Shown piece by piece: positions 27,222 through 63,304 of a stretch of 64,000 bases of DNA; position 1 is the first letter of the stretch, and every line of letters starts with the position of its first letter. Source of the stretch: Membranipora membranacea (lineage: Eukaryota; Bryozoa; Gymnolaemata; Cheilostomatida; Membraniporidae); assembly GCA_914767715.1 (NCBI GenBank), contig OU612075.1, positions 124,001 through 188,000 on the forward strand, read 5' to 3'. Below the pieces are notes generated by a model that worked only from the letters and a program-made list of their open reading frames with translations, made no database searches and had not been told where the DNA came from. Both the position numbers and the translations under genes were made by a program.

Positions 27222-29966
27222 ATGGCTGCCGCTAGTGCTATTAAGGAATATCCGATAAAGTTTGACAGTGAAGGCTCACTAATCTGGGACATGAGTAAAA
27301 TAGAGAATCATCTGATAGAACTCAACTACAATCAGACTGATGTCTTCAGGCTAACTGAGTGCCTGACTCTGGAGAGAGGTTCTGGGTTGTTAAGTTTTAA
27401 CATCAGAGTTCGCTTACAGAATCAGGAGAGAGAAGATGTGAAGTATTGTGGTCTAGGTGCACTGATTGATCATGATGATGCTTTGAGAATGTTACTTCAG
27501 TCTCTAAGTGATGAGGACAGGATTAGATTACTTCATATTGAGACGTCACCAGGTAGCTGTTATACACTACTTCACTATATAGCTGCTTGGGGTAAGACAG
27601 AGACAATGCAGACAATATTAGAGTTAGTTAGAGAGGATCTACACTATGACTTACTCTGTGTACAGGAGGATGGACTCAAGAGTACACCGATCCACTTTGC
27701 ATGTATGTATAATGAGGCTGATGTATTAGAGGAAATAATCAGACTTTCCTCAGCTCATGCACGGTATAAACTTCTACAGATACCTGATAAATACGGAGAT
27801 ACACCTTTACATTATGCAGCAGCGAATGGTCTTACACAATGTATCAGGATTATCGCTGACTCTGTAACAGCTGATCAGCTCATCTACTTACTGAGGATAA
27901 CAGACACTAATAGACTCACACCTGTACAGCTGGCAGCACTACGTAACGAGCAGGAATCAGTGAAGCTTCTACAGGATTATCAGACTAAAGCTCTTATAGA
28001 CATAGCTCTACTACAAACTGAATATACAGGTGATCATATTCATCAAGTTTTATTATTATATGCTGACTGTTAAAAATAAATGTGTTCTTAGTTTTTTTGG
28101 GAAGATAAATAGTCATTATAAATTATCTGCGATTTGTTTGTTCTTTCTTCCCAACACTAAGCAGATTATTCAAAATTCAGTTTAGAATAAGACAGGGCAA
28201 TACAATATGTCAAAAATAGACAGAAATAACCGAGTAAATTTCCTGTTTTCGTCTGTCTGTGTGACCTTGAGCAACCCTTTGTTGTCACTCCCTGGGATGA
28301 TGAGAAGCTTAATTATGACGCTATCATCAATCATCATTTTATAAAGACAGACCTTGATCTGATGTCTGAAGTAGAAAGTGTTTATTGTCTATCAACCTGC
28401 AAACCTGCTGCAGGCGTTACATCAATTGATAGCATTGATAACCAGTACATTTTGGTCAAAAGTTATAATATAATTGGCCAAAAGTTAAAGAGTTTGGAAT
28501 TTAGGGAATTTCCATCCCTTTCTGGGTGTACTGTGTACTAAAAAATTGTGTGGTTACATAGTTCTGAATAAATTCTAAAATAAGAGACAACACGAACTTT
28601 CGCAATTAAATTGATTAAGAATTACCTCAATATCATTGCTTGTCTATGTTATGAATTGTGGAAAATGTATAAAAATTGACCTCCAATATTCAATGATTAG
28701 TATTGACTCTATTTCAACTCACAGTTAGAGAAGAACAGATACAACAGATCATAGACCGAGAGCCGTTATCACCTGGTCAGATCGAAGAGTTATCTCCCTA
28801 CAGTCCTCAGTATGTGATTCCACACAACCAGACTAAGAGTAAGAGGTATGGACTGATCCTCTACAGCACTGAGCACAGACACGGAGGTGAGGAAGAAGCG
28901 GAGAACTTCAAACAAGCTTTAGAGACCGCAGGATGTGTTGTCACTAAGTTAGAATGGTCACACACAGAAGAGCTGAGCAGTATGATAGACAGCTCACTAG
29001 AAGGGATGGTTGGTGACTGCTCTCTGCTGATTGTGGCTGTGATGACTCATGGATACAGAGGAGCATTGAGAGGAAGTGATAACTCCGAGGTTCCAATCAA
29101 CAACATTCTGTTCCAGCTAAACAACACCCTTCCGAAGCATGTACCACTGGTAAGTTTCTTTTGCTAAAACTGAATTGTTGTGGGGATAAAAAAAGGTGAA
29201 TAGCTGAGAGTGAATCTATTGCTTCTCAAACAGCTCTCAGTGAGTCCAAGTCTAATAATGACTTGCTTGACTGTATACCATCCTTTGACATGGTGGGTTC
29301 TCGGAGGATGTTTTCACCCTGAACTTCAGAACAAAACAAATAATAATGAATCAAGAATCATTTTTCTGTTTTGTATATTTGATTAGCAAGATAATTAGTG
29401 ACAATATTGTAGAAATATTGTTTAGATTTCTTTTTCAAACTCTGTCTGGAAAGGCATCATGGATAAATGGTTTTGATGATATTGAGTGGTTGTCGCAGTC
29501 ATTTTTAGGCTCTCGTTGGCCAGTTTTGTTGATACACGAACCTAACATTGTTCTTCAGGTCCCAATAAGTTCTCCATTTCTTACACAGGTGATGGTTATA
29601 CAAGCCTGTCAGATATTCATCACACATGGAGTTGTACAACCACAAGATTACGAATCAGATCCAGCTACTCCAAGTCAAGTCATCGACCCACACAGCAACA
29701 AACACATAGTTCTACGCAGACCACACACAGCGCTGTTATTAGCTACAGTGACAGGTGGTCTAGCTATCAGAGGGGCTTTTACAGGAGCCTTAGCAGATCA
29801 GATCAGAGCGGCTGATGGTAAGACAGATATATCCACCATGTTTAATAGAGCTGTTAACAGCATGATAAGAAATGAGCCGGCTTGTGCTGGTCAGACACCA
29901 GAAATTAGAGCCACGACAGATAAAAATCTGATTCTACCCAGAGTCGATAACAATACAGCTGCATGA
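27222..29966 (+). CDS. Ankyrin repeat-caspase fusion protein, copy 1 (type I)
   Basis: Exons 27222-28029, 28725-29149 and 29589-29966 have donors CAG|GTGATC and CTG|GTAAGT, acceptors CTCACAG and TTACACAG, and phases 1 and 0; the product is 536 residues. Residues 1-85 are unrecognised. About four ankyrin repeats cover 114-262, with TLLHYIAAWGKTE, TPIHFACMYNEAD, TPLHYAAANGLTQ and TPVQLAALRNEQE. The caspase domain covers about 308-530: KRYGLILYS opens p20, catalytic His378 is in VMTHGYRG, and catalytic Cys418 is in VIQACQIF. The p10 part has the substrate-pocket-like Arg472 in GGLAIRG. Caspases are cysteine proteases that cut after Asp in cell death and inflammation; the fused ankyrin domain probably binds a protein partner. 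No CARD, DED or death domain is seen. The start ATG has a good context (AAAATGGC). Confidence 0.88.
28075..28080 (+). promoter_or_regulatory. Intronic polyadenylation signal, copy 1
   Basis: AATAAA is followed by TGTGTT and lies 2 nt after an in-frame TAA reached by reading through the intron 1 donor. The same layout occurs in the other three copies. Use of this signal would make an ankyrin-only protein ending in the residues YADC. Confidence 0.5.
28081..28724 (+). other. Intron 1 of ankyrin-caspase copy 1
   Basis: This intron is conserved in all four copies at nucleotide level. A reading frame starting near 28208 is open for 111 codons only in copy 3 (57132-57467). Here a single-base deletion (AGCTTA for AGCTTTA) breaks it, so I treat it as intron. 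Confidence 0.6.
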
Positions 29967-30718
29967 ATGGAGAATGTCAGCACGGTTAACTCTGTCTCTG
30001 ATATGAAAACTATTATTTTATCCTTGAATACTGTTTAATCAATTAATGTTTATTAGTAACACTGACATCAATAATAATGATACAATACAATATACATACT
30101 ACTATATTGTGAGTATGTCTCCTTTAATATATTACATTATTTTTTTGTAATATTTTGTCATATAACATACTATATCATTAAGCTAAAAATTACAAAATAT
30201 TTTATCTGGCTATCTGGATGACCAAAATACACATTATTTTACCTCACGAGGCATCATGTTAGGGCCCTAATGTTCATAATATTGATAGAGTGCATAGAGC
30301 GTTCATAAGTTGCCTGTAAATAAAAGACGTCTGAAATAAGCTGCCATTGAATTTAAGTATTACACAATTCAGACTTATTGTTCTGATATTGATTGAGGGA
30401 TTTTTTATGAGTCATGGAAAACTGTGGGGAAAATTGGAACTGAGCGCTGCTTTATTTAAGGCTCAATACATAAATGAGCTAGTCACACACTCACACAGGC
30501 ATAACTTACACAGAATATTGACTACTTATTGAGGACTTCACCTGTGATAAAATGGCTGCCGCTAGTGCTATTAAGGAATATCCGATAAAGTTTGACAGTG
30601 AAGGCTCACTAATCTGGGACACGAGTAAACTAGAGAATCATCTGATAGAACTCAACTACAATCAGACTGATGTCTTCAGGCTAACTGAGTGCCTGACTCT
30701 GGAGAGAGGTTCTGGGTT

Positions 30719-32057
30719 CTTCCGATTCTTCCGATAGGTTGATCGCCGTCGGAGTAGTTGTCTCCTTTCAAGGGCGATATGCTGTGTAGTGATAACAGAG
30801 TGAGACTTGATTATCTGGATGTAAATAACAGTATATCAGTCATCGGAGATGTAACAGTTAGGTATTTTGTATAGCTTCACAGCCACGACTCGCAAGGGAT
30901 CAATTCAAGGAGGGTTTTGGCGTCACATTCACAATCGCAGGGTTTTCAGCAGTGGGTTGTTAACATATAAGGGGAGGATAAGGAGAAATTGACAGACAAC
31001 TTTTGTTAGTAATCTGGGACAACACTGTAGGGGTTTCCAGTGGATTATCAGACACCAGGCCACACCACACTCGGGACCAGATCAGGGTAACAAGTCCTTG
31101 CCCATACACTAAAATCAACCACAACAGGCGCCGGGAGCCGAGCACGGGGAAGGGGGCTTAGTGCCTTCGAGAAAACGGCAACAAATGCACAATCGAAACA
31201 GCACTGAGTACTTGTTTCATGAGTTGGTAAATATTGTTGGAGTTGAGTAAGACGAGAGCAACAAATTATAAACGGAGTAGGATGGCTAATATACAATGAA
31301 ATAGGACAGTCCAGTATGTCGATGAGAGTAGTCAGTGGTGTGAGTCATAAGTCAGTAAACAATATCATGAGTCATCAGTAGTACAATAACGATCAATAGA
31401 TAAATGAGCAACAAGGGATATAGTAATGCGAACAACGAACAACATATACAGTTATCATAAATCAGTTCGATGGATAGCTGGGTTGAGATATCGGTAGACT
31501 CGCTGTTTGAAAGCATATTTCTTCACATTGGTGTTGATTGTACCAACAACAGAACCTGTCCGGGTGTTGTGATTGTGCATATGGCTTGTGGAGACTTTGC
31601 CTTCATCAACAGCTGCTGAACCTGCAATGATTTTGAAGTACAATTTTAGATCGGAATTTTGTCGTCTTTCAGCTAGAGTCTGCCAATCGAACTGAGACAT
31701 GAGATCACTGATATGATCCGACTTCTTTTTGTGAAAAGCCCATCTGAAAGCCTTCCGATTAATCGCTTCCATAGTGTCGATGTGTTTCACCAAGTGAGGC
31801 GACCAGCTTTGAGAAGCGTATTCCAGTATAGGCCTACAAATACATTTATAGCAAATAGCTCTGGATTTTGTACGAGCTTTTTTCAAATTTCTCATCAACA
31901 TATGAAGTATTTGAGTGGCTTTTTTACATATCTCCCTGATGTGTTTGTCGAAGGATAATTGGTCATCTATATGTACACCAAGATATTTAATACTGGAGAC
32001 TTGAGTCAGCTTGGAGTTGTTGAGCATGTAACTAGCCTGGGTTGAGTTATGTTTTTG
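30719..32057 (-). mobile_element. 5'-truncated non-LTR retrotransposon in ankyrin exon
   Basis: Comparison with copy 4 shows about 1.34 kb inserted between GGGTT and TTTAGTTTTAAC. On the minus strand it encodes about 200 residues of the C-terminal part of a reverse transcriptase: IKYLGVHIDDQLSFDKHI, then ILEYASQSWSP and MEAINRKAFRW. These are typical of the thumb and following region in CR1/L2/jockey-type elements. The 3' UTR runs down to about 30719 and ends in two copies of a 9-nt ATCGGAAGA unit, a short tandem tail as found in CR1-like clades. The polymerase core and endonuclease are missing through 5' truncation. Confidence 0.85.
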
Positions 32058-32749
32058 TTTTAGTTTTAACATCAGAGTCCGCTTACAGAATCAGGAGAGA
32101 GAAGATGTAAAGTATTGTAGTCTAGGTGAACTGGTTAATAATCATGATGATGTTTTGAGAATGTTACTTCAGTCTCTAAGTGATGAGGACAGGATTAGAT
32201 TACTTCATACTAGAGGCTCGATATTCAGTTGGACATTACTTCACTATATAGTTTATCAGGGTACGACAGAGATAATGCAGACAATATTAGAGTTAGTTAG
32301 AGAGGACCTACACTATGACTTACTCTGTGTACAGGAGGATGACACAGGAATCAAGAGGACACCGATCCACTTGGCATGTTGGCTTAATAAGTCGGATGTA
32401 TTAGAGGAAATAATCAGACTGACCCCAGCTCATACACGGTATAAACTCCTACAGATACTTGATGAATACGAAGCTACACCTTTACATGATGCAGTAGCGT
32501 TAGGTCGTACACAATGTATCATGATTATCGCTGACTCTGTAACAGCTGATCAGCTCATCTACTTACTGAGGATAACAGAGACTGATAGACGCACACCTGT
32601 ACAGCTGGCAGCACTATGTAACAAGCAGGAATCAGTGAAGCTTCTACAGGATTATCCGACTAAAGCTCTTATAGACATAGCTCTACTACAAACTGATTAT
32701 ACAGGTGATCATATTTATCAAGTTTTATTATTATATACTGACTGTCAAA

Positions 32750-32755
32750 AATAAA
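32750..32755 (+). promoter_or_regulatory. Intronic polyadenylation signal, copy 2
   Basis: AATAAA followed by TGTGTT, overlapping the read-through stop. Same position as in the other copies. Confidence 0.4.
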
Positions 32756-32967
32756 TGTGTTGTTAGTTTTTTAGGGAAAATAAATAGTCATTATAAATTA
32801 TCTGCGATTTGTTTGTTCTTTCTTTCCAACACTAAGCAGATTTTTCAAAATTCAGTTTAGAATAATACAGGGCAATACAATATGTCAAAAATAGACAGAA
32901 ATAACCAAGTAAATTTTCTGTTTTCGTCTGTCTGTGTGACCTTGAGCAACCCTTAGTAGTCACTCCC

Positions 32968-33052: not shown

Positions 33053-34477
33053 GTCACTCCCCGGGATGATGAGAAGCTTTAATTATGTCGCTATCATCAA
33101 TCATCATTTTATAAAGACAGACCTTGATCTGATGTCTGAAGTAGATAAGTGTTTATTGTCTACCAACCTGCAAACCTGCTGCAGGCGTTACATCAATTGA
33201 TAGTATTGATACCAAAAGTCATAATATAATTGGCCAAAAGTTAAAGAGCTTGGGATTTAGGGAATTTCCATCCCTTTCTGGGTGTACTGTGTACTAAAAT
33301 TGTGTGGTTACATAGTTCTGAATAAATTCTAAAATAAGAGACAACACAAACTTTCGCAATTAAATTGAGTAAGAATTACCTCAATATCATTGCTTGTCTA
33401 TGTTATGAATTGTGGAAAATGTATAAAAATTGAACTCCATTATTCAATGATTAGTATTGACTCTATTTCAACTCACAGTTAGAGAAGAACAGATACAACA
33501 GATCATAGACCGAGAGCCGTTATCACCTGGTCAGATCGAAGAGTTGTCTCCCTATAGTCCTCAGTATGTGATTCCACACAACCAGACTAAGAGTAAGAGG
33601 TATGGTCTGATCCTCTACAGCACTAAGGACAGACACGGAGCTGAGGAAGAGGCGGAGAACTTCAAACAAGCACTGGAGACCGCAGGATGTGATGTCACCA
33701 AGTTAGAATAGTCACACACAGAAGAGCTGAGCAGTATGATAGACAGCTCACTAGAAGGGATGGTTGGTGACTGTTCTCTGCTGATTGTGGCTGTGATGAC
33801 TCATGGATACAGAGGAGCGTTTGCAGGCAATGAAGATTCTGAGATTCCAATCAACAACGTTCTTTTCCAACTCAAACATGCTCTTCCAAAACACGTACCA
33901 CTGGTAAGCTCCAAATAGTGTATTGTTAAATCCTTGGATAAGCTACCAATATTCCGGCTCAAGCTTACTTTCATTTGACAACCATATACTGAGCTATAAC
34001 CACCACATGCACGAAGTAAGATTCCCCATTTGTAGACTAATTCTTTGATGTGCTTATATATTTTCCAATAAAAGCCTCGATTTCTTTCAGGTGATGGTTA
34101 TACAAGCCTGTCAGATATTCACCACTCATGGAGTTGTAAAACCTCAAGATTACGAATCAGATCCAGCTACTCCCAGTCATGTCATCGACCCACACAGCAA
34201 CAAACACATAGTTCTACGCAGACCACACACAGTTCTGCTACTAGCTACAGTAACAGGTGGTCTAGCCATAAGAGGGGCTTTTACAGTTGCCTTAGCGGAT
34301 CAGATCAGCGCGGCTGATGGTAAAACTGATATCTACTCCATGTTTAATCAAGCAGTCAGGAATATGATCAGAGACGACACAAATCAGAGACCAGAATTTA
34401 GAGCCACAACAGAATCTAGTCTTGTACTTCCACCTGCTGCTAATAATGAAGCCGCTGCTGTTGGATCCTCAGTTTAA

Positions 34478-36682: not shown

Positions 36683-37554
36683 GGCTACTCAGGCACTAGC
36701 TACATCCTATGTAGTAAAAGGGTAATGTGACTCTAAGGCTACTCAGGCACTAGCTACATCCTATGTAGTAAAAGGGTAATGTGACTCTAAGGCTACTCAG
36801 GCACTAGCTACATCCTATGTAGTAAAAGGGTAATGTGACTCTAAGGCTACTCAGGCACTAGCTACATCCTATGTAGTAAAAGGGTTATGTGACTCTAAGG
36901 CTACTCAGGCACTAGCTACATCCCTATGTAGTAAAAGGGTAATGTGACTCTAAGGCTACTCAGGCACTAGCTACATCCCTATGTAGTAAAAGGGTAATGT
37001 GACTCTAAGGCTACTCAGGCACTAGCTACATCCCTATGTAGTAAAAGGGTAATGTGACTCTAAGGCTACTCAGGCACTAGCTACATCCTATGTAGTAAAA
37101 GGGTTATGTGACTCTAAGGCTACTCAGGCACTAGCTACATCCCTATGTAGTAAAAGGGTAATGTGACTCTAAGGCTACTCAGGCACTAGCTACATCCCTA
37201 TGTAGTAAAAGGGTAATGTGACTCTAAGGCTACTCAGGCACTAGCTACATCCCTATGTAGTAAAAGGGTTATGTGACTCTAAGGCTACTCAGGCACTAGC
37301 TACATCCCTATGTAGTAAAAGGGTTATGTGACTCTAAGGCTACTCAGGCACTAGCTACATCCCTATGTAGTAAAAGGGTAATGTGACTCTAAGGCTACTC
37401 AGGCACTAGCTACATCCCTATGTAGTAAAAGGGTAATGTGACTCTAAGGCTACTCAGGCACTAGCTACATCCTATGTAGTAAAAGGGTAATGTGACTCTA
37501 AGGCTACTCAGGCACTAGCTACATCCTATGTAGTAAAAGGGTAATGTGACTCTA
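36683..37554. repeat. 54/55-nt minisatellite, 16 copies
   Basis: Sixteen head-to-tail units start with GGCTACTCAGGCACTAG and end with GTGACTCTAA. Units are 54 nt (TCCTAT) or 55 nt (TCCCTAT), with a second variable base (GGTAATG or GGTTATG, the latter in units 4, 8, 11 and 12). CTACAT and ATGTAG in each unit form a short inverted repeat. Near-perfect identity implies recent expansion or homogenisation. Confidence 0.97.
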
Positions 37555-48129: not shown

Positions 48130-48534
48130 TATAACTTTAAAGCGCTTGTTGGATTTCCATGCCTAAGAAAAACCTGGCGTGTCGATAAAAACATTGAAAT
48201 ATTTGACTAGTCTGTCATATTTGTAAGAAATAATTCCTACCTTGAATCGCTAATCTGTAGGAGATTCTATGCGGCATCTTGTACTTGTTTCTTGAGTTCC
48301 ATCCCTCAGACCTGTATCGGATGTTCAGTACATCGAAATCATCATTGGAAATCTGTATTAATTCTATGGTAGCCGAATATCTCACCGCATTCTCGAGTTC
48401 ATTTGCAACAGATCCAGAGTGCCTAGAGAGAAATAAGGAATAAAATTTATAGTCTTCTTTTCTGGTCATGTGCAGCTCTAGACTATCTTCCAACCACAGG
48501 CCATCTGTATTTGGTGTAAGTCCAGGACCAGTGG

Positions 48535-48680
48535 TTGAATGCCCGAGTGGTCAAGGCCTAAACAACTGGAGTTGATTCAACTGTACTACAGAAAGTTGCT
48601 TCCAACCTCCCTGTTCCAGCAGACTGGTTGTGACGGAATTACACCGGGAGTTCATTGGTGAGAGTCCCTCTTAATAAATC
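48535..48680 (+). repeat. tRNA-like SINE fragment
   Basis: ATGCCCGAGTGGTCAAGGCC resembles the A-box and D-arm of a class II (Leu/Ser) tRNA. The anticodon and T arms that should follow are not recognisable, so it is a SINE or relic. Confidence 0.4.
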
Positions 48681-49244
48681 AAAAATAACTCCTCACTTTT
48701 CATCTTTCTTACTACTATGGTATAAGCATGTACTTCTTGCCTAAATAACTTTGTCATCTGAAACAAACACCATTGCACTCACATCAACTCATCCAACTCC
48801 TTGCTCACATTGTTGTAGTTAGAATCAGATTGTCTTTATAGTTCAATTTTCTATTAGATAAAATACACCAGATTTGCTAAGCGAGTCATATTTTGCCATT
48901 AGTTAGTGTACAGTGCTATTTTTTCAGGTCATAATATAGTACACGCCCAGACCACGCCCCAGTTTCGAAGCTCTATTGATATATTAGCTCTGCTTAACAC
49001 AGAATTTTTTTTTCTGATGATTTGATGTGTAGAAAGCATTCTTTCATACTACAAGAGCCACACTATGGTTATGAGCAGACCAAGGAGTTAGAGGGACTCC
49101 TTGAGCAGACCAGTCAAGGTTTCTAGCCACAATTCATCTCTTTTGCTCATAGTTGTGGTGAATAAATCCAATTTGCCACCGCTTTGACTCTCTCTGCTCT
49201 GGCAGGTCTAGCTTGTAAATCTCCAATTTTAACCTGATATTTGG

Positions 49245-49735
49245 TGCTTACTTACTTGGTACTTGAAGGTTAATCGCCAACTTCTGTGAGAAGGTTGTGG
49301 CAATATGTCATCTTGTCTGTCCGTCTCCGTTCCGGGTCTGCAACGTAGGGTCGGTAGATCGATCGCCATCAACCTTAGCCTGCCACTGGGGGTCCCTCGA
49401 GGAGGGTGCTGCCGATCGGTAGGGCGTTCTACAGTTTAGCAGTGCTCACAAAGAAGCTGTTCTGGTGCAGTTTGGTATTGCAGTGAGGGATAAAATACTG
49501 CGATTGGTGTTTCCTTGACTGTCCAGCATGTGTAGGATGTGGAGAGAGGTAGTCAGTGATGTTAACAGCAACCTTGTTGTAGTGCATAGCGCGGAAGATG
49601 CCGAGCCTTCTTCTCTCCCTCCGGTCTTTGAGTGTGTCCCACTCCAGGTCCTCCAGAAGTTTTGTAGTGCTGGTGGTGTGATCAGTTCTTCTGACATTGG
49701 ACACCATCCGGGCTGCTCTTCTTTGGACTGCACAA
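49245..49735 (-). mobile_element. Non-LTR retrotransposon 3' fragment
   Basis: An insertion relative to copy A (near 21650). The minus strand encodes VQRRAARMVSNV, WDTLKDRRERRRLGIFRAM and YFIPHCNTKLHQ, then FFVSTAKLWNALP, the usual C-terminal end of LINE reverse-transcriptase ORFs. It ends in an AAGTAAGTAAG-type tail at about 49245. It is heavily 5' truncated. Confidence 0.8.
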
Positions 49736-52700
49736 ACATGAATATACACAGATAAGTTATCTCAGTCGACATAGTCTCCAGCACCAGCCCCAATGAATGT
49801 GACTTGGGAAGAAAGAAGCGAATGTTTCAAGGTTTTTAAACATCAAGGACAAGGTTAATGCAAAAAGCAGCAATATGAGACAAGGAGTTAGCGAGACGCT
49901 GCGCAGGTTTGTCATTACAAAATAAATTTCAGTTGGGAAACTCCTTTTCACGGGTCTACTCCAAAACCTGGGACTTTGGCAATGTTTGACTGTCCCCAAC
50001 AAAAACTCTTGTGGGCAGTCAAACATTTCCAAACTCCAAGGTTTTAGATCAGACCTGTGGTTTCAATCTTGAAAGCTATAGCGGGTGTTATAGGATAGGA
50101 TCACTGCAAACCTCCTCCGAGCCATCAACATTCATCCGCATCCTGGTAGTACAAAAATAAGGCACAACCAACAGTGACCATCATGTAAGATCTTACTTGT
50201 TTGCACCGCTTAATTGTGGAATAACGTTTGTTTGTATCGTTCGATAATTGTAGATCCTGCTGTGGCAGGTTAAACTACTGCTGCCACTCATGCAAATTTG
50301 TGCTCATCGAATTCTGCATAGCTCCACGATAATTAATTAGACTTAAATCTCAGCATTGTCACCTAATGGGCAAATAATTTGCACGAACTGATCTTCAAAA
50401 TCAGGGCATGAAATCACCAGCTTATGACGTGTACAGTATGCATTAGTAAGACAGTAACTACGTCACCCGTGCCGGTAGATAATTAATTTCATACCCTAAG
50501 TTTGACGATCAGTTTGTGCAAATTATTTGCTCATTGGGTGACCACACCAGACCCGCACCAGACCACACCACACCAGACCACACCAGATCACACCTGACCA
50601 CACCAGACCACACCAGACCAGAAGAAGCATTTACTCTCTTGATATCAAGTACGTAACGGAATGGTGCTTTACCAAAGGTTCTTATAATTGCATTTGTCGT
50701 CACATTACTAGCTGACAATTCAATGTAGATTCCACTTCAACATTACAAAATACAGTTAAGTTGTGAAACTCCTGTTGCATGAGCTTCAAGCTTGCAAGCC
50801 ACTGGGTTGCATAATATAGGATCACAAACATACAGAAGCACACTGATATGATGCTTTATTGCAAAATGGTCAGTTTCATGACTTAAGTGATTTAAGACGT
50901 CATATGGGCTTCATTGTTCCTGCTGAGCTATTTGGCTGATGTGATGTCTTGTGTAGGTCTAAGGGGAGGGGGGGCTTTGCGTGTAAGGCAGTCTTGGGAG
51001 CCTAGTGCATAAACCTGTATCAACTCACACAAAAAAAAACAAAAGCTTTTGTGGATATCAAGACACCCTAAACAATTGATTTTCATAGTCAAAAGATGTT
51101 TGCAATCTTAGCATGTTATATGAATCTCATGTTTTATACCTTATGAAACTGAGAATGGCTTACAATGTTGTGCACCAGGATCTTTCGAGCCCTCATGCAC
51201 CCAACCTGTCATTGTAATCTTTCTAAATTATGATGACAGGTCAATGTGATGTGGTGAGTGACTAACTCTTGTGATTTTAACCAACATTTATAACCAACAT
51301 TTTAAGAGCTGATCTGGTGTGATGTCTATCTAAAGAAGAGAGATATATCTGAAGCTGAATTTTACTCCGCTGTATTGTTCATTACATGTCCACAGGTATA
51401 CTTTGTAAGGTTACCAAAGGTTATCTGTCTCTGTCACTCACATGTCCACAGGTATACTATGTAAGCTTACCATGTCCACAGGTATACTATGTAAGGTTAC
51501 CAAAGGTTATCTGTCTCTCCAGTCACTTGACGTTGCAGGGCTGCTCAGTATCACAGCATGTTATATAGAGATTATGGTATTTGAATTCTTCATCAAGTTG
51601 GTTTTGTTAAAGAGCAATCACCGCTATCCGCACTGATAGTCAGAGAGTGAGCTCACAACTCTCATATTTTGAACAAATGTAGATTTTATGTAGTCTTGAG
51701 ATATTGAATTACCCACCGATACCCAAAATATGCAGGCATCACCACCAGTACCAAACAAGACCCATCAACGCCCAGCCTACTGCATTGCACCTAGATCGAT
51801 ATTGATCCAGTTTGCCTGAATTGTCATCACTTAAAAGTTGGGGCTTATATATAAGTGAAGGGGAGCAATTCCAAATGCTAGCAAACTTAATCCGAGCTTC
51901 ACCCACCGATTCCTAGGATTACCCACCAACACCCGATACCAAGTATTAGTATTGGTGCAAGGTTAAAAAACTAACATTAGATTGTCCTTACCAAAGATAA
52001 TTTTCATTATTTAATCGACAAATGTCAGGCCTTCCCTATTATTCAGTATAACTCCTAATCTCTGCTTTTACTGTTCCACGCTACCTAGGCCTGATAGTAG
52101 AATGGAGGACACTTGGTTGGTTTCCTACTTGATTTGATTGTAGATATATGTGCTCAATTTTATTCATAATATTGATGAGATCTTTGTTGTCTTTTGTAGT
52201 CATAATTTGGAGTTGCCCCTTCTCGGCGCCAATGAATACAAGATGACTCCAGTCTGTATACGTATACTGTATTTCCGTTTGGTGAAGGGTAGCACTCTGG
52301 TGAGTTGCACACAAAACAATGACCAGGGTTTGTTACTGGGCCTTATTGTTCTTCGGTTAAGGAGAGGTGAACTCCTAGATCAAGAGTTAACCAAGGACTA
52401 ACTGCACATATAAGTGTTAATAAATAAACTCTGAACCATTCAAATAGTCTCCTCCTGATATCCAGTTTAATTCTTTAGGAAAGCAAAAAACAACCACCCC
52501 TCATATCAAAGCAAACTCATAACAATGAACAAAAACACGTGTTAAAATCTGTCACAGGGGAGGTAACATATTCTAGATCCTTCTAAACCCTGGGTATTCG
52601 CGCTTTGGAATTCTCATCCAATAATGTTCTTATGCGAGTAAATTAGGTTTTTTTGTTCACTGTTATGAGTTTGATTTGATATGTACTGTGGTAGTTTGAG

Positions 52701-55179
52701 CCCCCCAGACTTTTGCCCCCGGCCGACGGCTCTCCGCCGTACTGTGGTTGTTTTTTTACTTTCCTAAACTCTGTATTTTTCTTAGAGCACACTCCCTGTG
52801 AGTGTGAGACAATTATCTTCTACCACCCAGCCAAGAATAACCTAATACAGTTATATATAGTTAAAATTGTACATTGCGTCACATGGGTCACATAATACTT
52901 GCTAAGTTATTTTACGGGTGCAGTGTTTTGTGTTGGTTTGATTGCTAGGCCTATGACATTTTACTAAACCTTGACACCTAAGACTGCCATGCAGAACTAG
53001 TCCAACATTGCAATTTATTTATCTGTTCTGACAGGAAAACTTGTCAATTTGCTGGCTACTGGTGAGTAAAGGCTCATGAGAAATATTGTAAGCTATGAAC
53101 TCGTTGTCCTGAGAGATTGCCCAGAGCATAGACCTAGATCATCCCACAAAAAAAAACATTGGAAATACAATTTTTGTCACTCCTGTCTCCATTCCCTTAT
53201 TTTAGTACCTATTCAGATAGTATTAAATTTTGTAATGAGTTTTCACTTCTTAAATTTCCAAAACTGTCACAATTACTTTACTTGAAATATATAAAAATCA
53301 GATGCTTAGGTTGTATTGATATCCAACCGAGTCCTGCGCTTTTTGTGTGAGATGATCTTGGTCATGTACTTGGACTCAGGACTCACCCCAATTTATTTAT
53401 CTGCTCCAAAAGTCGCTTTTAACGGGGGCATGTAACGTAGTCTTGAGAGCCCAGTGCTTAGACACAGAAACAAAACAAAATTTTTTGTGTGGAAATCAAG
53501 ACACCCTAAACAATTGGTTTTTATTAAACTCATGTAATAAAACAAACTTTTGAATCTCATGTTATGTACCCTTCAGAACTGGGTTACTTTTTGTAATGAT
53601 AACAAAACTAGTTATCTATGCCCGACCGGAATGGGTGGTTATGGATGTATTGCTCTACAATAACAACAAATCGCTGCCCTAGAATTCGAGACTTCAAACT
53701 GATGTTTTTACATTTTTAACAGGACACATTGAAGGGCTTCATGTTGCCACAATCTGAAAGGTGTCCCATGTTTTAATATGCTATATTATGGTCATTATGT
53801 TTTATATCTTTTGGAACTGAGGAATTTTCGAAATGCAGTTTTCCAAAAACTCAAGAGTTCCTTATAATTTTGTGCAACAGTTGTTTTGACCCTTCATATA
53901 TGCACCCAAATTGTCATTGTGATCTTTCAGAACAAAGAGTACTATGTTATGATGACAGACAGGTCAATGTTATGTAAATGTATGAGATTTACAAGTCTGA
54001 TGCAGATATAGAGCACATGTTATAAGATGACTTATCTACAAGAGCTGATCTGGTGTAATGTCTATCTAAAGAAGAGAGATCAATCTGAAGCTGAATTTCA
54101 CTCCGTTGTTTTCTCCATCACAAGTTCACAGGTATACTATGTAAGGTTACCAAAGGTTATCTGCCTCTCCAGTCACTTGACATTGCAGGGCTGCTCAGTA
54201 TCACAGGATGTTGTAGAGAGGTTATGGTCTACACACTTTACCAAGCTTGTTTTGTTGTAGAGCGTCCAACACTATCTACACTGATAGTCAGAGAGTAAGC
54301 TGACAACTCTCATATTTACAACAAATGTAGGGTTTCTGTAGTCTTGAGACATTGCATTACCCACTGATAACCCAAATATGCAGGCATTATCACTAGTACC
54401 AAGCCCATCAACGCCCAGTATACCACATCTCCCCTAGATCGAGTTTGATCCAGTTTGCCTCAGGGGCTTATTTATCAGTGGAGGGAAGCAATTCCAAATG
54501 CAAGCAAACTAGAGCCAAACTTCATCTGCATTACCACCCACCAACACCCAATACCAAGCATTAGTATTGTTGTAAGGTCAAAAAACTAACATTTGATTGT
54601 CCTTACCAAAGATAATTTTCATTATTTAATCAACCAATGTCAGGCCTTCCCTATAATGAACATTCAGTATAGGCTAATTCAGGTATAGGTATTCTGGCTA
54701 ATTTTGGTGTTAGCTATATACCCTGGCTGCTAGTTGGTACATTTGTTTGAATATCTAATTGTACCTTCTGACATCTGTGGAACCCGATGGCCACACCACT
54801 GATACTACAGTATACATACATCCTGTTGGTACTGACACTGATCACCTTCACACAATTCTCTGATAAGTTTATAACTTAATATTATCTGATTATTGAAACA
54901 CTCCGTTAGGTCTAAAATCCTTATCTAAAGTTGTCCTACATATTAACACAAGTTTTGGCAAAGTCTTATTTCTTTATTATTAGACTTGTCATTCAGCCAA
55001 AAAAGGTGGGCCCTTGACAAGGCTATATAATATGATATGAGCCTTGCATGATAAGGTTGCCAATAGAGGTTTATATATATAACGTTATCACTATTGAAGT
55101 TAGCAGCTGTCAAATTATGTGAAACTGAGTGGGGATTTTATATGTGTCAATAAATGTGTATAAATGTTATTGTGCACAT
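49736..55179. other. Non-coding part of duplication copy B
   Basis: The counterpart of 21690-27100, with the same diverged internal repeats. It has an extra tandem of CATGTCCACAGGTATACTATG near 51386-51500. No gene is supported. Confidence 0.5.
50540..50625. repeat. Expanded ACCACACCAG repeat
   Basis: About eight imperfect 10-nt units, compared with three to four in the duplicate at 22480-22515. Confidence 0.8.
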
Positions 55180-55950
55180 TTTATCAGTGTTAATATATTT
55201 TTTTATTATTATGTAACAGGCATCAACCGCTTGTATATTTACTATCTTCATGTGTATTTATTGAACCATAAGAAAATAGTTTCTTCTTTGCAAAAATCTT
55301 CTAAAATTCATCACCAGTATATCAGCTGAGTCTCAATCATAACCTCATGTATTTATCCGTCCAATAAGAGCAGAGGGAGCAGAATTGTTCTAGAGCTACC
55401 TAACTGGGACTATAACATGTATAGCTGTTTTGAACACCTTACTGATGAGGAAATCAGTAAGTACAGGATCTGATGTTGCGAGGAGTGAGTTCAGTATACT
55501 AGCTGTAAGTAACAAATATCCAGACATCACCAGGTATCATTTACAGTCCAGGCTAATAATCAATAATAAACCTATGTTCCTACGAGAAATCCAGCCAGGG
55601 ATCTTCATTGCCAAATTTGTTATGACCATTCTAAGAAAATTCTGACGCATATTTGCTAAAATAATTCTCCTGTCTGAACATCCAAGACTGTTAGAGCTTT
55701 GGAACAACTCCAGGGGAAAACTCCTGAAAAAGTTGCTTATAGAAATAGTTTATTATATCAAATCATTAGACTCCATATCAGGTCATCAGAAACACACAAT
55801 TTTTATTGTATATATTAAATCAGGTTACCTGATTTCACATGCTTCACTAAGCACCATGTTAGGGCCCTAATGTTCATAATATTGATGGTGTGCATAGAGC
55901 GTTCATAAGTTGCCTGTAAATAAAAGACGTCTGAAATAAGCTGCCATTGA
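55180..55950 (+). repeat. Upstream module of copy 3, shared with copy 4
   Basis: Matches about 59870-60640. It includes the words GCATCAAC, TTGTATATTTACTATCTTC and TTAGGGCCCTAATGTTCAT. Copy 2 keeps only the last ~300 nt and copy 1 has lost nearly all. A 71-codon open stretch at 55430-55645 is disrupted in the other copy. Confidence 0.75.
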
Positions 55951-56151
55951 ATTTAAGTATTACACAATTCAGACTTATTGTTCTGATATTGATTGAGGGA
56001 TTTTTTATGAGTCATGGAAAACTGTGGGGAAAATTGGAGCTGAGTGCTGCTTTATTTGTGGCTCAATACATAAATGAGCTAGTCACACACTCACACAGGC
56101 ATAACTTACACAGAATGTTGACTACGTATTGAGGACTTCAGCTGTGATAAA

Positions 56152-58921
56152 ATGGCTGCAGCTAGTGACATTATGGAGTATCCGATAAAGTTTGACAGTG
56201 AAGGCTCACTAATCTGGGACATGAGTAAACTTGAGAATCATCTGATAGAACTCAACTGCAATCAGACTGATTTCCTCAGGCTAACTGAGTGCCTAACTCT
56301 GGAGAGAGGTTCTGGGTTGTTAAGTTTTAACATCAGAGTTCGCTTACAGGATCAGGAGAGAGAAGATGTGAACTATTGTCGTCTAGGTAAACTGATTGAT
56401 CATGATGATGTTTTGAGAATGTTACTTCAGTCTCTAAGTGAGGAGGACAGGATTAGATTACTTCATACATCAGATAGCGGTTGGACATTACTTCACTATA
56501 TAGCTGCTCGGGGTAAGACAGAGATAATGCAGACAATATTAGAGTTAGTTAGACAGGATCTACACTATGACTTACTCTGTGTACAGACGACTGCACACAA
56601 GCAGACACTGATCCACTGGGCATGTATGCGTAATAGGCCTGATGTATTAGAGGAAATAATCAGACTGACCTCCGCTCATACATGGTATAAACTCCTACAG
56701 ATACCTGATGTATACGAAGCTACACCTTTACATTGGGCAGCAATGTTAGGTCGTACACAATGTATCAGGATTATCGCTGACTCTGTAACAGCTGATCAGC
56801 TCATCTACTTACTGAGGATAACAGAGACTGATAGACGCACACCTGTACAGCTGGCAGCACAAATAAACAAGCAGGAATCAGTGAAGCTTCTACAGGATTA
56901 TCAGACTAAAGCTCTTATAGACATAGCTCTACTACAAACTGATTATACAGGTGATCATATTCATCAAGTTTTATTATTATATAATACTGACTGTTAAGAA
57001 TAAATGTGTTGTTAGTTTTTTTTGGGAAAATAAATAGTTATTATAAATTATCTGCGATTTGTTTGTTCTTTCCTCCCAACACTAAGCAGATTATTCAAAA
57101 TTCAGTTTAGAATAAGACAGGGCAATACAATATGTCAAAAATAGACAGAAATAACCAAGTAAATTTCCTGTTTTCGTCTGTCTGTGTGACCTTGAGCAAC
57201 CCTTTGTTGTCACTCCCCGGGATGATGAGAAGCTTTAATTATGACGCTGTCATCAATCATCATTTTATAAAGACAGACCTTGATCTGATGTCTGAAGTAG
57301 AAAGTGATTATTGTCTATCAACCTGCAAACCTGCTGCAGGCGTTACATCAATTGATAGCATTGATAACCAGTACATTTTGGTTAAAAGTTATAATATAAT
57401 TGGCCAAAAGTTAAAGAGTTTGGGATTTAGGGAATTTCCATCCCTTTCTGGGTGTACTGTGTACTAAAATTGTGCGGTTACATAGCTCTGAATAAATTAT
57501 AAAATAAGAGACAACACGAACTTTCGCAATTAAATTGAGTAAGAATTACCTCAATATCATTGCTTGTCTATGTTATGAATTGTGGAAAATGTATAAAAAT
57601 TGACCTCCAATATTCAATGATTAGTATTGCCTCTATTTCAACTCACAGTTAGGGAAGAACAGATACAACAGATCATAGAACAAGAGCCTTTATCACCTGG
57701 TCAGATCGAAGAGTTGTCTCCCTATAGTCCTCAGTATGTGATTCCACACAACCAGACTAAGACTAAGAGGTATGGACTGATCCTCTACAGCACTGAGCAC
57801 AGACACGGAGGTGAGGAAGAGGCGGAGAACTTCAAACAAGCTTTAGAGACCGCAGGATGTGTTGTCACTAAGTTAGAATGGTCACACACAGAAGAGCTGA
57901 GCAGTATGATAGACAGCTCACTAGAAGGGATGGTTGGTGACTGCTCTCTGCTGATTGTGGCTGTGATGACTCATGGATACAGAGGAGCATTGAGAGGAAG
58001 TGATAACTCCGAGGTTCCAATCAACAACATTCTGTTCCAGCTAAACAACACCCTTCCGAAGCATGTACCACTGGTAAGTTTCTTTTGCTAAAACTGAATT
58101 GTTGTGGGGATAAAAAAAGGTGAATAGCTGAGAGTGAATCTATTGCTTCTCAAACAGCTCTCAGTGAGTCCAAGTCTAATAATGACTTGCTTGACTGTAT
58201 ACCATCCTTCGACATGGTGGGTTCTCGGAGGATGTTTTCACCCTGAACTTCAGAACAAAACAAATAATAATGAATCAAGAATCATTTTTCTATGCTTTGT
58301 ATATTTGATTAGCATGATAATTAGTGACAATATTGAAGAAATATTGTTTAGATTTCTTTTTCAAACTCTCTCTAGAAATGCATTGTTTGGACATTCAAGC
58401 CTTCCCTGTCCCAACTGTGCTGTAAATATGATGATATTGAGTGGTTGTCGCAGTCATTTTTAGGCTCTCATTGGTCAGTTTTGTTGATACACGAACCTAA
58501 CATTGTTCTTCAGGTCCCAATAAGTTCTCCATTTCTTACACAGGTGATGGTTATACAAGCCTGTCAGATATTCACCACACATGGAGTTGTACAACCACAA
58601 GATTACGAATCAGATCCAGCTACTCCAAGTCAAGTCAACGACCCACACAGCAACAAACACATAGTTCTACGCAGACCACACACAGCGCTGTTATTAGCTA
58701 CAGTGACAGGTGGTCTAGCTATCAGAGTGGCTTTTACAGGAGCCTTAGCAGATCAGATCAGAGCGGCTGATGGTAAAACTGATATCTTCTCCATGTTTAA
58801 TAGAGCTGTTAACAGCATGATAAGAAATGAGCCGGCTTGTGTTGGTCAGACACCAGAAATAAGAGCTACGACAGATAAAAATCTGATTTTACCCAGAGTC
58901 GATAACAATACAGCTGCCTGA
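56152..58921 (+). CDS. Ankyrin repeat-caspase fusion protein, copy 3 (type I)
   Basis: Exons 56152-56950, 57649-58073 and 58544-58921, with the same phases as copy 1, encode 533 residues and are intact. The ankyrin repeats read TLLHYIAARGKTE, TLIHWACMRNRPD, TPLHWAAMLGRTQ and TPVQLAAQINKQE, differing from copy 1 mainly at hairpin and first-helix positions. The caspase domain keeps His in VMTHGYRG and Cys in VIQACQIF. The p10 loop has GGLAIRVAF where the other copies have GGLAIRGAF, next to the pocket Arg, which could affect substrate choice. The C-terminus is type I (NLILPRVDNNTAA), so this is the duplication partner of copy 1. The N-terminus starts MAAASDIMEYP rather than MAAASAIKEYP. Confidence 0.88.
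56999..57004 (+). promoter_or_regulatory. Intronic polyadenylation signal, copy 3
   Basis: AATAAA followed by TGTGTTGTTAG just after the read-through stop of exon 1, which ends in YNTDC. Confidence 0.45.
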
Positions 58922-60820
58922 ATGGAGAATGTCAGCACGGTTAACTCTGTCTCTGATATGAAAACTATTATTTTATCCTTGAATACTGTTTAATCAATTA
59001 ATGTTTATTAGTAACACTGACATCAATAATAATGATGATACAATACTATATTATTTTGGGTACATCTCCTATGCTGTCACATAACATAATATATTGTTTT
59101 GAGTATGTCTCCTTTAATATATGACATTATATACGTAATATTTTGTCATATAACATACTATAACATTAAGCTAAAATTTACAAAATAAGTTATCTGGCCA
59201 TCTGGATGACCAAAATACACATTATTTTACCGAATAATATGTATTATATATACTGCTACCCTAATCATTATGTCATTATGGTTAATATTTCTGTGAAAGT
59301 ACAGTTTGTTTTGAGTAGACTCAAAATATCTGATATCAGTTAGTTTTCTATTATTTAACTCTTACTCATTAGTAGTTATCTTATCCTACATAGAGAGGAG
59401 ATAACTACTTTTATATTGATAATTTGTAACCAAAACACAGATTATATTATGTTCAAAGATTATATGAGGTGAGATATAATATACAGATGTACAAAACATT
59501 AAACACATTATCACTACTAAGTTTGGACCGGATAAACTGATACAACCAATACTGAGTCGTATCTTGATACATGAATATAAACCTGTATTGGAGTGATGTA
59601 CTAATATGGGTCTGGATGCGCCTGATGATGGCTTCAAATTTAGTTATCGCATCAAATGAATTGACAGAGCTGACTTGTATGACTTTCAATGTAACACAAT
59701 CATTCCATACTAGAGATAATCAGAGTATGTGCATCTCAACAACACCACACAACGGCTCATAGGTTAGTTGGTGAGTATAATCAAAAATAATGCTGACTTA
59801 AAATAGCTAACAATAATTACTCGGAAGGTTGTCCATTTTTTATAGGCGAACTGATAGTTTTGCATACAATTTGTTAATATATTTTTTTATTATGTAACTG
59901 GCATCAACTGCTTGTATATTTACTATCTTCATGTGTATTTATTGAACCATAAGAGAATAGTTTCTTCTTTGCAAACATCTTCTAAATTTCATCACCAGTA
60001 TATCAGCTGAGTCTCAATCATAACCTCATGTATTTATCTGTCCAATAAGAGCAGAGGGAGCAGAATTGTTCTAAGACTACCTAACTGGGACTATAACATG
60101 TATTACACCTCACTGATGAGGAAATCGGTACAGGATCTGCTGTTGTGAGGAGTGAGTTCAGTATTCTAGCTGTAAGTAACAAATACCCAGACATCACCAG
60201 GTATCATTTACAGTCCAGGCTAATAATCAAAAATAAACCTATGTTCCTACGAGAAATCCAGCCAGGGATCATCATTGCCAAATTTGTTATGACCATTCTG
60301 AGAAAATTCTGACGCATATTTGCTAAGATAATCCTCCTGCCTGAACATCCAAGACTGTTAGAACTGTGGAACAACTCCAGGGGAAAACTCCTGAAGAAGT
60401 AGCTTATAGAAATAATTTATTATATCAAAATAATTCGACTCCATATCAGGTCATCAGAAACGCACAGTTTTTATTGTATATATTAGATCAGGTTACCTGA
60501 TTTCACATGGTTCACTAAGCATTATGTTAGGGCCCTAATGTTCATAATATTGATAGTGTGCATAGAGCGTTCATAAGTTGCCTGTAAATAAAAGACGTCT
60601 AAAATAAGCTGCCATTGAATTTAAGTATTATACAATTCAGACTTATTGTTCTGATATTGATTGAGGGATTTTTTTTGAGTCATGGAAAACTGTGGGGAAA
60701 ATTGGAACTAGGCAACTGCCCTATTTGTGGCTCAATACATAAATGAGCTAGTCACACACTCACACAGGCATAACTTACACAGAATATTGACTACTTATTG
60801 AGGACTTCACCTGTGATAAA
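58922..60820. other. Spacer between copies 3 and 4
   Basis: 58922-59230 is similar to the flank of copy 1 (29967-30240). 59230-59870 has no counterpart in the window and no gene. 59870-60640 repeats the upstream module of copy 3, and the last ~180 nt are the proximal promoter shared with copies 2 and 3. Confidence 0.6.
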
Positions 60821-63304
60821 ATGGCTGCCGCTAGTGCTATTAAGGAATATCCGATAAAGTTTGACAGTGAAGGCTCACTAATCTGGGACACGAGTAAACT
60901 AGAGAATCATCTGATAGAACTCAACTACAATCAGACTGATGTCTTCAGGCTAACTGAGTGCCTGACTCTGGAGAGAGGTTCTGGGTTGTTTAGTTTTAAC
61001 ATCAGAGTCCGCTTACAGAATCAGGAGAGAGAAGATGTAAAGTATTATATTCTAGGTGAACTGGTTAATAATCATGATGATGTTTTGAGAATGTTACTTC
61101 AGTCTCTAAGTGAGGAGGACAGGATTAGATTACTTCATACTAGAGGCTCGATATTCGGTTCACTACTTCACTATATAGCTGCTGTGGGTAAGACAGAGAC
61201 AATGCAGACAACATTAGAGTTAGTTAGAGAGGACCTACACTATGACTTACTCTGTGTACAGGATACAGGATACAAGTTGACACCGATCCACTTTGCATGT
61301 TGGCTTAATAACCCTGATGTATTAGAGGTAATAATCAGACTTACCTCCGCTCATACATGGTATAAACTTCTACTGATACCTGATAGAGACAGACAAACAC
61401 CTTTACATTTGGCAGCAGCGTTTGGTCATACACAATGTATCAGGATCATCGCTGACTCTGTAACAGCTGATCAGCTCATCTACTTACTGAGGATAACAGA
61501 GACTGAAGGACTCACACCTGTACAGCGGGCAGCACAATTAAACGTGCAGGAATCAGTGAAGCTTCTACAGGATTATCAGACTAAAGCTCTTATAGACATA
61601 GCTCTACTACAAACTGATTATACAGGTGATCATATTCATCAAGTTTTATTATTATATAATACTGACTGTTAAAAATAAATGTGTTGTTAGTTTTTTTATG
61701 AAAATAAATAGTCATTATAAATTATCTGCGATTTGTTTGTTCTTTCTTCCCAACACTAAGCAGATTATTCAAAATTCAGTTTAGAATAAGACAGGGCAAT
61801 ACAATATGTCAAAAATAGACAGAAATAACCAAGTAAATTTCCTGTTTCCGTCTGTCTGTGTGACCTTGAGCAACCCTTTGTTGTCACTCCCTGGGATGAT
61901 GAGAAGCTTAATTATGACGCTATCATCAATCATCATTTTATAAAGACAGACCTCGATCGGATGTCTGAACTCTGAAGTAGATAAGTGTTTACTGTCTATC
62001 AACCTGCAAACCTGCTGCAGGCGTTACATCAATTGATAATATTGATAACCAGTACATTTTGGTCAAAAGTTATAATATAATTGGCCAAAAGTTAAAGAGT
62101 TTGGAATTTAGGGAATTTCCATCCCTTTCTGGGTGTACTGTGTACTAAAATTGTGTGGTTACATAGTTCTGAATAAATTCCATCCATCCATCCATCCATC
62201 CATCCATCCATCTATTTATCTATTTTATGAAATGAATTGTGGAAAATATATAAAACATGAACGCCAATATTCAATGATTAATATTGACTCTATTTTTACT
62301 CACAGTCAGAGAAGAACTAATACAACAGATCATAGACCGAGAGCCGTTATCACCTGGTCAGATTGAAGAGTTATCTTCCTACAGTCCTCGGTATGTGATT
62401 CCACACAACCAGACTAAGACTAAGAGGTATGGACTGATCCTCTACAGCACTAAGGACAGACACGGAGCTGAGGAAGAGGCGGAGAACTTCAAACAAGCAC
62501 TGGAGACCGCAGGATGTGATGTCACTAAGTTAGAATGGTCACACACAGAAGAGCTGAGCAGCATGATAGACAGCTCACTAGAAGGGATGGTTGTTGACTG
62601 TTCTCTGCTGATTGTGGCTGTGATGACTCATGGATACAGAGGAGCGTTTGCAGGCAATGAAGATTCTGAGATTCCAATCAACAACGTTCTTTTCCAACTC
62701 AAACATGCTCTTCCAAAACACGTACCACTGGTAAGCTCCAAATAGTGTATTGTTAAATCCTTGGATAAGCTACCAATATTCCGGCTCAAGCTTACTTTCA
62801 TTTGACAGCCATATACTGAGCTATAACCACCACACGCACGAAGTAAGATTCCCCATTTGTAGACTAATTCTTTGATGTGCTTATATATTTTCCAATAAAA
62901 GCCTCGATTTCTTTCAGGTGATGGTTATACAAGCCTGTCAGATATTCAGCACACATGGAGTTGTACAACCTCAAGATTACGAATCAGATCCAGCTACTCC
63001 CAGTCATGTCATCGACCCACACAGCAACAAACACATAGTTCTACGCAGACCACACACAGTTCTGTTACTAGCTACAGTAACAGGTGGTCTAGCCATAAGA
63101 GGGGCTTTTACAGGTGCCTTAGCGGATCAGATCAGAGCGGCTGATGGTAAAACTGATATCTACTCCATGTTTAATCAAGCAGTCAGGAATATGATCAGAG
63201 ACGACACAAATCAGAGACCAGAATTTAGAGCCACAACAGAATCTAGTCTTGTACTTCCACCTGCTGCTAATAATGAAGCCGCTGCTGTTGGATCCTCAGT
63301 TTAA
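60821..63304 (+). CDS. Ankyrin repeat-caspase fusion protein, copy 4 (type II)
   Basis: Exons 60821-61625, 62306-62730 and 62918-63304, with the same phases, encode 538 residues and are intact. The ankyrin repeats read SLLHYIAAVGKTE, TPIHFACWLNNPD, TPLHLAAAFGHTQ and TPVQRAAQLNVQE. The caspase part has MTHGYRGAF and VIQACQIFSTHG. The type II marks are NEDSEIPINNVLFQLKHA and a longer C-terminus ending AAAVGSSV. It is the partner of copy 2 and shows what copy 2 looked like before damage: TGG at the Trp codon, no retroelement, no hairpin. Intron 2 is short (187 nt) compared with about 440-470 nt in type I genes. Intron 1 has a TCCA run at 62179-62212. Confidence 0.88.
61674..61679 (+). promoter_or_regulatory. 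Intronic polyadenylation signal, copy 4
   Basis: AATAAA followed by TGTGTTG just after the read-through stop of exon 1. Confidence 0.45.
62179..62212. repeat. TCCA microsatellite
   Basis: About eight CATC/TCCA units in intron 1 of copy 4, replacing sequence found in the other three introns. Confidence 0.9.

Follow-up and report, generated by a model that had tools for sequence, protein, structure and literature searches.

Diversifying selection on the predicted binding face of ankyrin repeats in a candidate family of bryozoan ankyrin-caspase genes

The DNA analysed here, referred to below as the window, is a 64,000-nucleotide stretch of the bryozoan Membranipora membranacea, corresponding to positions 124001-188000 of contig OU612075.1 (C11) in an assembly of 339 Mb and 18 contigs. 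On its + strand lie four paralogues, A to D, each beginning with a single long exon of approximately 269 residues that encodes an N-terminal cap and four 39-residue ankyrin repeats, followed about 0.7 kb downstream by a caspase p20 exon and next by a p10 exon (Table 1). The predicted binding face of these repeats has almost certainly been subject to diversifying selection, and a second cluster of such genes, on contig C9 (copies labelled N or M below), exhibits the same selection pattern, although less strongly. The four window copies form two pairs within blocks duplicated approximately 29 kb apart, two additional copies start at distances of about 18 kb (E) and 22 kb (F) past its right-hand limit, and A to F are young tandem paralogues. 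An earlier description made from the letters of the window without database searches (the sequence-only reading) had reported four ankyrin copies, and the third-repeat strings that it quoted occur exactly in the open reading frames (ORFs) of A (27222-28070), B (32056-32754), C (56152-56994) and D (60821-61669), all on the + strand. Four copies are indeed present, with the qualification that copy B is broken, its exon 1 being split by an insertion and its p20 exon carrying an in-frame stop. That description lacked both the caspase gene that the ankyrin exon appears to open and the further copies and clusters outside the window.

The ankyrin repeats of copy A match Pfam Ank_2 (2e-15), and profile match and fold together identify an ankyrin repeat protein in which each repeat contains one extra short helix. 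Repeats of designed ankyrin repeat proteins (DARPins) are 33 residues long. The N-terminal cap region is without a Pfam match, and an ATP-cone identity considered for the N-terminal 60 residues was rejected, no such Pfam match appearing at E 10 in 5 of 5 pieces. Because homologues can be aligned until the motif ..QT-x-x-[TS]-G and diverge beyond it, the end of exon 1 was placed at ACAG/GT (the slash marking the splice boundary). The p20 exon begins after ag/ with two codon-completing bases (TT; TC in D; AT or AA in three C9 copies) and ends at the donor TG/gt, and the p10 exon opens after ag/ with GTG, GTT or ATT; this pattern of splice signals and phase is valid at all 14 p20 exons compared.

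When the three exons of copy A are joined, they yield one Peptidase_C14 (PF00656) match of 6e-15 that spans nearly the whole profile, whereas the separate exon ORFs reach only 7e-6 and 1e-4. The p20 part aligns through its THG motif with the solved Caspase-1 chain 1m72, the p10 part alone finds no match among solved chains at E 1, and the QAC motif of p10 is unchanged in 12 of 12 aligned sequences. The His and Cys of these two motifs are presumably the caspase catalytic residues, and a full domain bearing both places the product in the caspase family (Peptidase C14). Both p20 and p10 exons follow the ankyrin exon in all six C11 copies and in eight of nine C9 copies; in C9 the p20 exons of N1 and N7 are damaged, and behind N3 just the start of p20 was found. 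The caspase exons are under purifying selection, with a ratio of nonsynonymous to synonymous rates (dN/dS, or omega) of 0.26 in C11 (A, C, D, E, F) and 0.20 in C9 (N2, N5, N8, N9, M1), each significantly below 1. As judged from the DNA, the ankyrin, p20 and p10 exons very probably constitute one fusion gene and would be spliced to encode a single protein. A Pfam scan at E 0.001 of the protein joined from the copy A exons found no NACHT or NB-ARC family; because this product is without a nucleotide-binding domain, it is not a NOD-like receptor (NLR; NOD, nucleotide-binding oligomerization domain), though it may work like one.

The sequence-only reading had proposed that differences among copies concentrate at the hairpin and first-helix positions of each repeat. 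Among the four window copies, codons at repeat positions 2, 3, 5, 10, 13 and 14 vary in 22 of 24 cases, compared with 31 of 118 other ankyrin codons. Most differences alter the amino acid, as had also been claimed (21 of the 22 variable codons at these six positions, with 1 silent only, and 26 of the 31 elsewhere, with 5 silent). The near-identity described for the next ~60 nt is borne out as well, since within the 63 bases CIRIIADSVTADQLIYLLRIT only two codons vary across the four copies, one of them silently. The likeness to designed ankyrin binders holds position by position: 2, 3, 5, 10, 13 and 14 coincide with the positions that a published ankyrin library randomised because, as that article explains, their side chains face outward on one surface (PMC3308923). 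We refer to these six as the library positions.

Pairwise comparisons reveal a marked excess of amino acid change. Unless other copies are named, the C11 set comprises A to F, with copy B entering only by the part after its insertion; the seven-copy C9 set comprises copies whose ankyrin exon is free of stops, and thus includes N1, N3 and N7, with damaged or partly found p20 exons, and leaves out N4 and N6 (stops) and M1. Over residues 77-252, A and F differ by 44 nonsynonymous and 3 synonymous changes, with corresponding values of 40/3 for E-F, 47.8/4.2 for A-E and 46.5/4.5 for C-E (Fisher p 0.002-0.004 for each pair). At sites 2, 3, 5, 13 and 14, fixed a priori, the NG86 dN/dS is 3.6 in C11 and 2.1 in C9, compared with 1.4 and 1.3 over the remaining repeat codons, and 0 of 300 random sets of ankyrin codons attained the omega of these sites in either cluster.

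Site models run blind to repeat position lead to the same residues. The selection model M2a is preferred over M1a by twice the log-likelihood difference (2dlnL) of 203 in C11 (28 selected sites) and 126 in C9 (27 sites). Among selected sites within repeats, 18 of 26 (C11) and 17 of 19 (C9) fall at the library positions; conversely, the models select 18 of 24 and 17 of 22 library-position codons (hypergeometric p 5e-12 and 1e-15). Positions 6-9, 11, 12 and 15 contain no selected site, and the 17-39 stretch contains one per cluster. Fitted by repeat position, omega peaks at 10-45 in C11 (positions 1-5, 10, 13, 14, 16) and at 4-20 in C9 (2, 3, 5, 10, 13, 14), is no more than about 2.6 at the remaining positions apart from position 32 in C11 (5.7), and is correlated between the clusters (Spearman 0.74). 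A joint four-class fit gives omega values of 24.4 (C11) and 10.5 (C9) for library positions, 11.2 and 1.9 for positions 1/4/16, 0.97 and 0.84 for the framework, and 1.06 and 1.23 for the rest of the exon. The signal is present in the window copies alone (14.9 at library positions versus 1.07 elsewhere), in C11 without the broken B (27.4 versus 1.56) and in C9 limited to N2, N5, N8 and N9 (10.9 versus 1.22). The positive selection proposed for hairpin and inner-helix positions is accordingly strong, with site models and omega fits in agreement and omega at the variable positions well above 1. An even spread over buried and exposed positions is not seen, and as in fungal hypervariable repeat receptors the selection falls on the predicted ligand face, exposure being judged from repeat position and not from mapping on coordinates.

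The same positions are variable in more distant relatives, which outside this assembly are known only from short contigs (ENA, JGI and one other source). In 30 homologues from short ENA contigs, 38-54% identical, mean entropy is 2.60 bits at 20 DARPin-type sites versus 0.91 at the other 120 (p 5e-11). Among viral contigs, 71 pattern matches to possible relatives yielded zero confirmed cases, as did 15 pattern matches to caspase p10 relatives among prokaryote genome contigs.

Taken as a whole, these genes are probably best explained as sensor-effector genes, in which a diversified ankyrin sensor is joined to a conserved caspase and the whole is duplicated and recombined. The cap and four-repeat ankyrin solenoid would act as the sensor and would be spliced to the complete caspase domain as the effector. 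New copies arise by tandem duplication; diversifying selection alters the residues predicted to face the ligand, which lie at the tips of the hairpins and on the exposed side of the inner helix, with the caspase held under purifying selection; and recombination among copies re-pairs 5' ends, ankyrin blocks and caspase bodies. A ligand on the ankyrin face would most likely cluster or release the caspase, leading to proteolysis and probably to cell death or an inflammation-like response in the recognition of pathogens, symbionts or self versus non-self. A role as recognition receptors, with ankyrin-sensor caspases detecting non-self or self, is suggested by the sequence pattern and appears rather likely to us.

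The alternative that survives best, though we consider it unlikely, is that the paralogues are signalling adaptors, each neofunctionalised for a different fixed host partner, with no recognition arms race. Binding to host proteins is common among ankyrin domains, the face differs from copy to copy, and the foreign nature of the ligand is itself putative. Adaptors devoted to particular partners would, however, be expected to settle and become conserved, whereas the same diversification is found in two clusters and in database homologues, and the copies, mosaic and broken ones included, are very young (intron 1 divergence of about 2% among A, C, E and F and among N2, N5, N8 and N9).

The sequence-only reading had attributed the near-identical framework to gene conversion from which the variable sites escape, and in that form the proposal now looks improbable. 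Gene-wide divergence, tabulated with copy B omitted, amounts among A, C, E and F to 1.6-2.5% in intron 1, 0-1.9% in exon 2, 0-4.9% in intron 2 and 0.8-3.8% in exon 3, with 8.5-13% in the ankyrin part; among N2, N5, N8 and N9, intron 1 differs by 1.4-2.1% and the ankyrin part by 8-10%. In C11, synonymous divergence (dS) is 0.064 in non-binding ankyrin codons and 0.059 in the N-terminal part, close to the mean intron 1 divergence of 0.051 (five copies). Because framework dS thus resembles that of its surroundings and framework omega is approximately 1, recent duplication suffices to explain the near-identity, and extra homogenisation is unneeded. Sequence exchange between copies does occur, a point in favour of the conversion proposal. 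Copy A combines the 5' flank of E (140 of 140 informative sites) with the 3' half of F (41 of 46), and copy C combines the 5' flank of F (122 of 130) with the 3' half of E (44 of 46), so that exchange joins whole gene halves and the copies are gene-scale mosaics. By eye, hairpin and helix motifs also look reassorted, with the helix residues of the fourth repeat common to A and F and its hairpin to B and C. Most settings of the pairwise homoplasy index (PHI) are significant on all C11 copies and on C9; without copy B, p ranges from 0.02 to 0.24 across six settings and is mostly not significant, and the index is biased by multi-base codon changes.

A mutational or conversion hotspot acting without selection, with amino acid change as a by-product, is very improbable, although it would account for variation clustered in short stretches, for the many codons that differ at more than one base, and for a fitted local rate 2-4 times higher in C9 and C1. 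The corresponding neutral model, which holds omega at 1 but leaves the binding codons a free rate of their own, is rejected in C11 with six copies (2dlnL 39.8), without B (29.6) and with the four window copies alone (21.5), as well as in C9 with seven copies (17.9). A hotspot would further predict equal numbers of changes at the three codon positions, whereas the minimum changes at positions 1, 2 and 3 of binding codons are 22, 34 and 10 in C11 and 20, 27 and 9 in C9, fewest at the third in both. When only codons with single-nucleotide differences are counted, C11 exhibits 19 nonsynonymous to 0 synonymous changes (p 0.007).

Relaxed constraint on pseudogenising tandem copies, to which the split and stop of copy B, the ankyrin-exon stops of N4 and N6, the p20 stop of N7, the p20 frame change of N1, the stop in the p20 match of a C3 copy and the broken copies on C5 and at C9:22 Mb might all point, is scarcely credible as the source of the signal, since it would give omega near 1 rather than 10-27, would not keep positions 6-9, 11, 12 and 15 clear of selected sites or hold caspase omega at 0.20-0.26, and would not leave a signal that persists in A, C, D, E and F (open where examined) and, more weakly, in N2, N5, N8 and N9.

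Several observations nevertheless weigh against diversifying selection confined to the binding face of a fusion gene. Two of the 28 selected sites in C11 and eight of the 27 in C9 lie in the N-terminal part, several of them in the cap just before the repeats. Support in C9 over the neutral model is modest when only copies with an open caspase are used (N2, N5, N8, N9: omega 3.1, own rate 3.8, 2dlnL 4.9, p 0.03); it rises when M1 is added (2dlnL 9.4, p 0.002), and all ten C9 rows give omega 3.0, own rate 2.6 and 2dlnL 12.4 against omega 1. In a third cluster, on C1 (four copies), omega at binding sites is inseparable from a faster local rate (2dlnL 1.8), a result compatible with the hotspot model; sequence from locus L031 was taken only from its first homologous residue on. 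Multi-nucleotide changes, for which codon models are ill suited, are common: of the 40 binding codons that differ in three independent C11 pairs, 21 do so at more than one base. The single-nucleotide count in C9 is 13 to 1 (p 0.22), and site models can be inflated by recombination. Synonymous divergence of the C9 ankyrin part (4-6%) exceeds that of intron 1 (1.4-2.1%), and part of the C9 diversity may therefore predate its flanks. The exon 1 donor (GTGATC) is weak. It is possible that a raised local rate operates in C9 and C1 besides selection; diversifying selection on the predicted ankyrin face nonetheless remains, with near certainty, our interpretation.

Table 1. Positions in the window of the exons of copies A to D and of the insertion in copy B.
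Feature	Positions	Strand	Basis
Copy A exon 1: cap region and four ankyrin repeats	27222..28029	+	ORF, Pfam; donor ACAG/GTGATC inferred from end of homologue alignment and phase with next exon
Copy A repeats R1 to R4, spanning residues 110-252, with hypervariability chiefly at positions 1-5, 10, 13, 14, 16 of the repeat	27549..27977	+	
Copy A exon 2: caspase p20 part, THG motif	28725..29149	+	
Copy A exon 3: caspase p10 part, starts VMVIQACQ (catalytic-type Cys)	29589..29966	+	
Copy B (broken) exon 1, first part	30552..30718	+	
Insertion dividing copy B exon 1	30719..32054	none	
Copy B exon 1, remainder including ankyrin repeats	32056..32704	+	
Copy B p20 exon, in-frame stop	33479..33903	+	
Copy B p10 exon (matched part)	34091..34429	+	
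Copy C exon 1: N-terminal cap and ankyrin repeats	56152..56950	+	
Copy C p20 exon	57649..58073	+	
Copy C p10 exon	58544..58921	+	
Copy D exon 1: N-terminal cap and ankyrin repeats	60821..61625	+	
Copy D p20 exon	62306..62730	+	
Copy D p10 exon (matched part)	62918..63256	+	

The insertion in copy B contains a minus-strand ORF (31455-32072) that by eye resembles the end of a LINE (long interspersed nuclear element) reverse transcriptase and has no Pfam match; at the right edge of the insertion stands TTTTTGTTTTAG/TTTT, which could serve as a splice acceptor. A large segmental duplication spans 14225-30100 and 42438-59231, with the two blocks about 28-29 kb apart, and a third block lies beyond the window on its right. 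Behind copy F, an extra p20 exon piece (L011:9167-9640) without an ankyrin exon directly before it looks like the deletion remnant of a B/D-type gene. Elsewhere in the window, a 55-base unit is repeated in sixteen tandem copies with 98% matches at 36683-37554, and is present too in the next duplicated block (L009). A 404-base unit occurs in 2.2 copies with 99% matches at 41064-41965 and includes a string that by eye resembles a tRNA T-arm; ARAGORN finds no tRNA in the window. An open frame of 945 residues on the minus strand (1337-4174) is by eye rich in serine and charge and is without a Pfam match.

The p20 exon has at least 150 matched pieces genome-wide (pieces, not genes; 150 of 274 candidates were scored), many of them clustered on C3. 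Among four further loci read, on C1, C3, C5 and C8, an ankyrin exon with a similar N-terminal cap is accompanied by p20 and p10 on C1 and by p20 on C8. At 19.0 Mb on C3 (L029:836-3777), an ORF with a Roc GTPase match (3.6e-6) lies just upstream of a p20-matching exon on which Pfam makes no call. From these arrangements on C1, C8 and C3, the sensor-caspase plan appears to reach beyond the C11 cluster. At 14.9 Mb on C8 (L028, L034, L035), more repeats than in C11 are seen by eye, some of them very alike, which suggests change in repeat number; the C11 genes have four differing repeats, among which high inter-repeat conservation is not evident. In one database protein, P0020, a p20 segment stands directly before the ankyrin cap region, an order reversed relative to the window. 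More tentatively, and with the balance still tilted against it, the family might be nature's equivalent of designed ankyrin binders, in the form of a germline ankyrin-caspase repertoire whose hairpin and inner-helix modules would be diversified and reshuffled between tandem copies, wiring recognition of foreign or non-self ligands straight to caspase activation without an NLR, and forming one branch of a genome-wide sensor-caspase set that shares one p20/p10 cassette and in which other members may carry, for example, an upstream Roc GTPase exon.

The caspase fusion makes the case more interesting than the sequence-only reading had it. The family is a concrete, testable candidate recognition system with named residues expected to contact ligands, open copies and a predicted output. 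Should the genes vary between individuals, self/non-self recognition of the ankyrin-caspase kind would become directly testable. Among the open-licence papers listed, none was found to describe an ankyrin-caspase family under such selection, as judged by title and start of abstract.

The closest precedent is found in fungi. According to the relevant passages of PMC4986451 (Dyrka et al. 2014), fungal NLRs carry ANK, TPR or WD40 repeats, positive selection acts on the concave side of their ankyrin repeats, and recombination has been proposed as a source of new faces. As in the bryozoan genes, a repeat sensor is linked there to other signalling or effector domains; unlike them, the fungal receptors, as portrayed in those passages, possess NACHT or NB-ARC domains and vary between alleles in how many highly conserved repeats they have (PMC4986451), whereas here a nucleotide-binding domain was not found and a caspase, placed C-terminal to the ankyrins, would be the effector. 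Gasdermins in fungi are controlled by protease domains to which ANK, TPR or WD40 repeats are attached directly, as outlined in part of PMC12881547, and these fusions share with the bryozoan genes a repeat sensor joined to a death-type protease without a NOD. The proteases named in that part are S8 serine or CHAT caspase-like enzymes (PMC12881547), in contrast to the Peptidase_C14 domain encoded here, whose p20 matches solved Caspase-1 chains. Sections of PMC8242945 and PMC4986451 mention the NACHT-domain receptors of sponges and corals, which, like the bryozoan genes, are putative sensors bearing repeat domains and which form large families in these early-branching animals. They have a NACHT-type domain, with or without leucine-rich repeats; no NACHT-type domain was found in the present gene. 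If our interpretation is correct, fungi and (probably) animals would have arrived convergently at repeat sensors that are coupled to death proteases.

Engineered ankyrin libraries and DARPins share with the bryozoan genes the same variable positions and the same kind of repeat scaffold, as PMC3308923 presents them. Their repeats are artificial, whereas those described here are natural, 39 residues long and equipped with an extra short helix, and in C11 they vary at positions 1, 4 and 16 too. The bryozoan family would thus show natural selection diversifying the same ankyrin face that protein engineers use.

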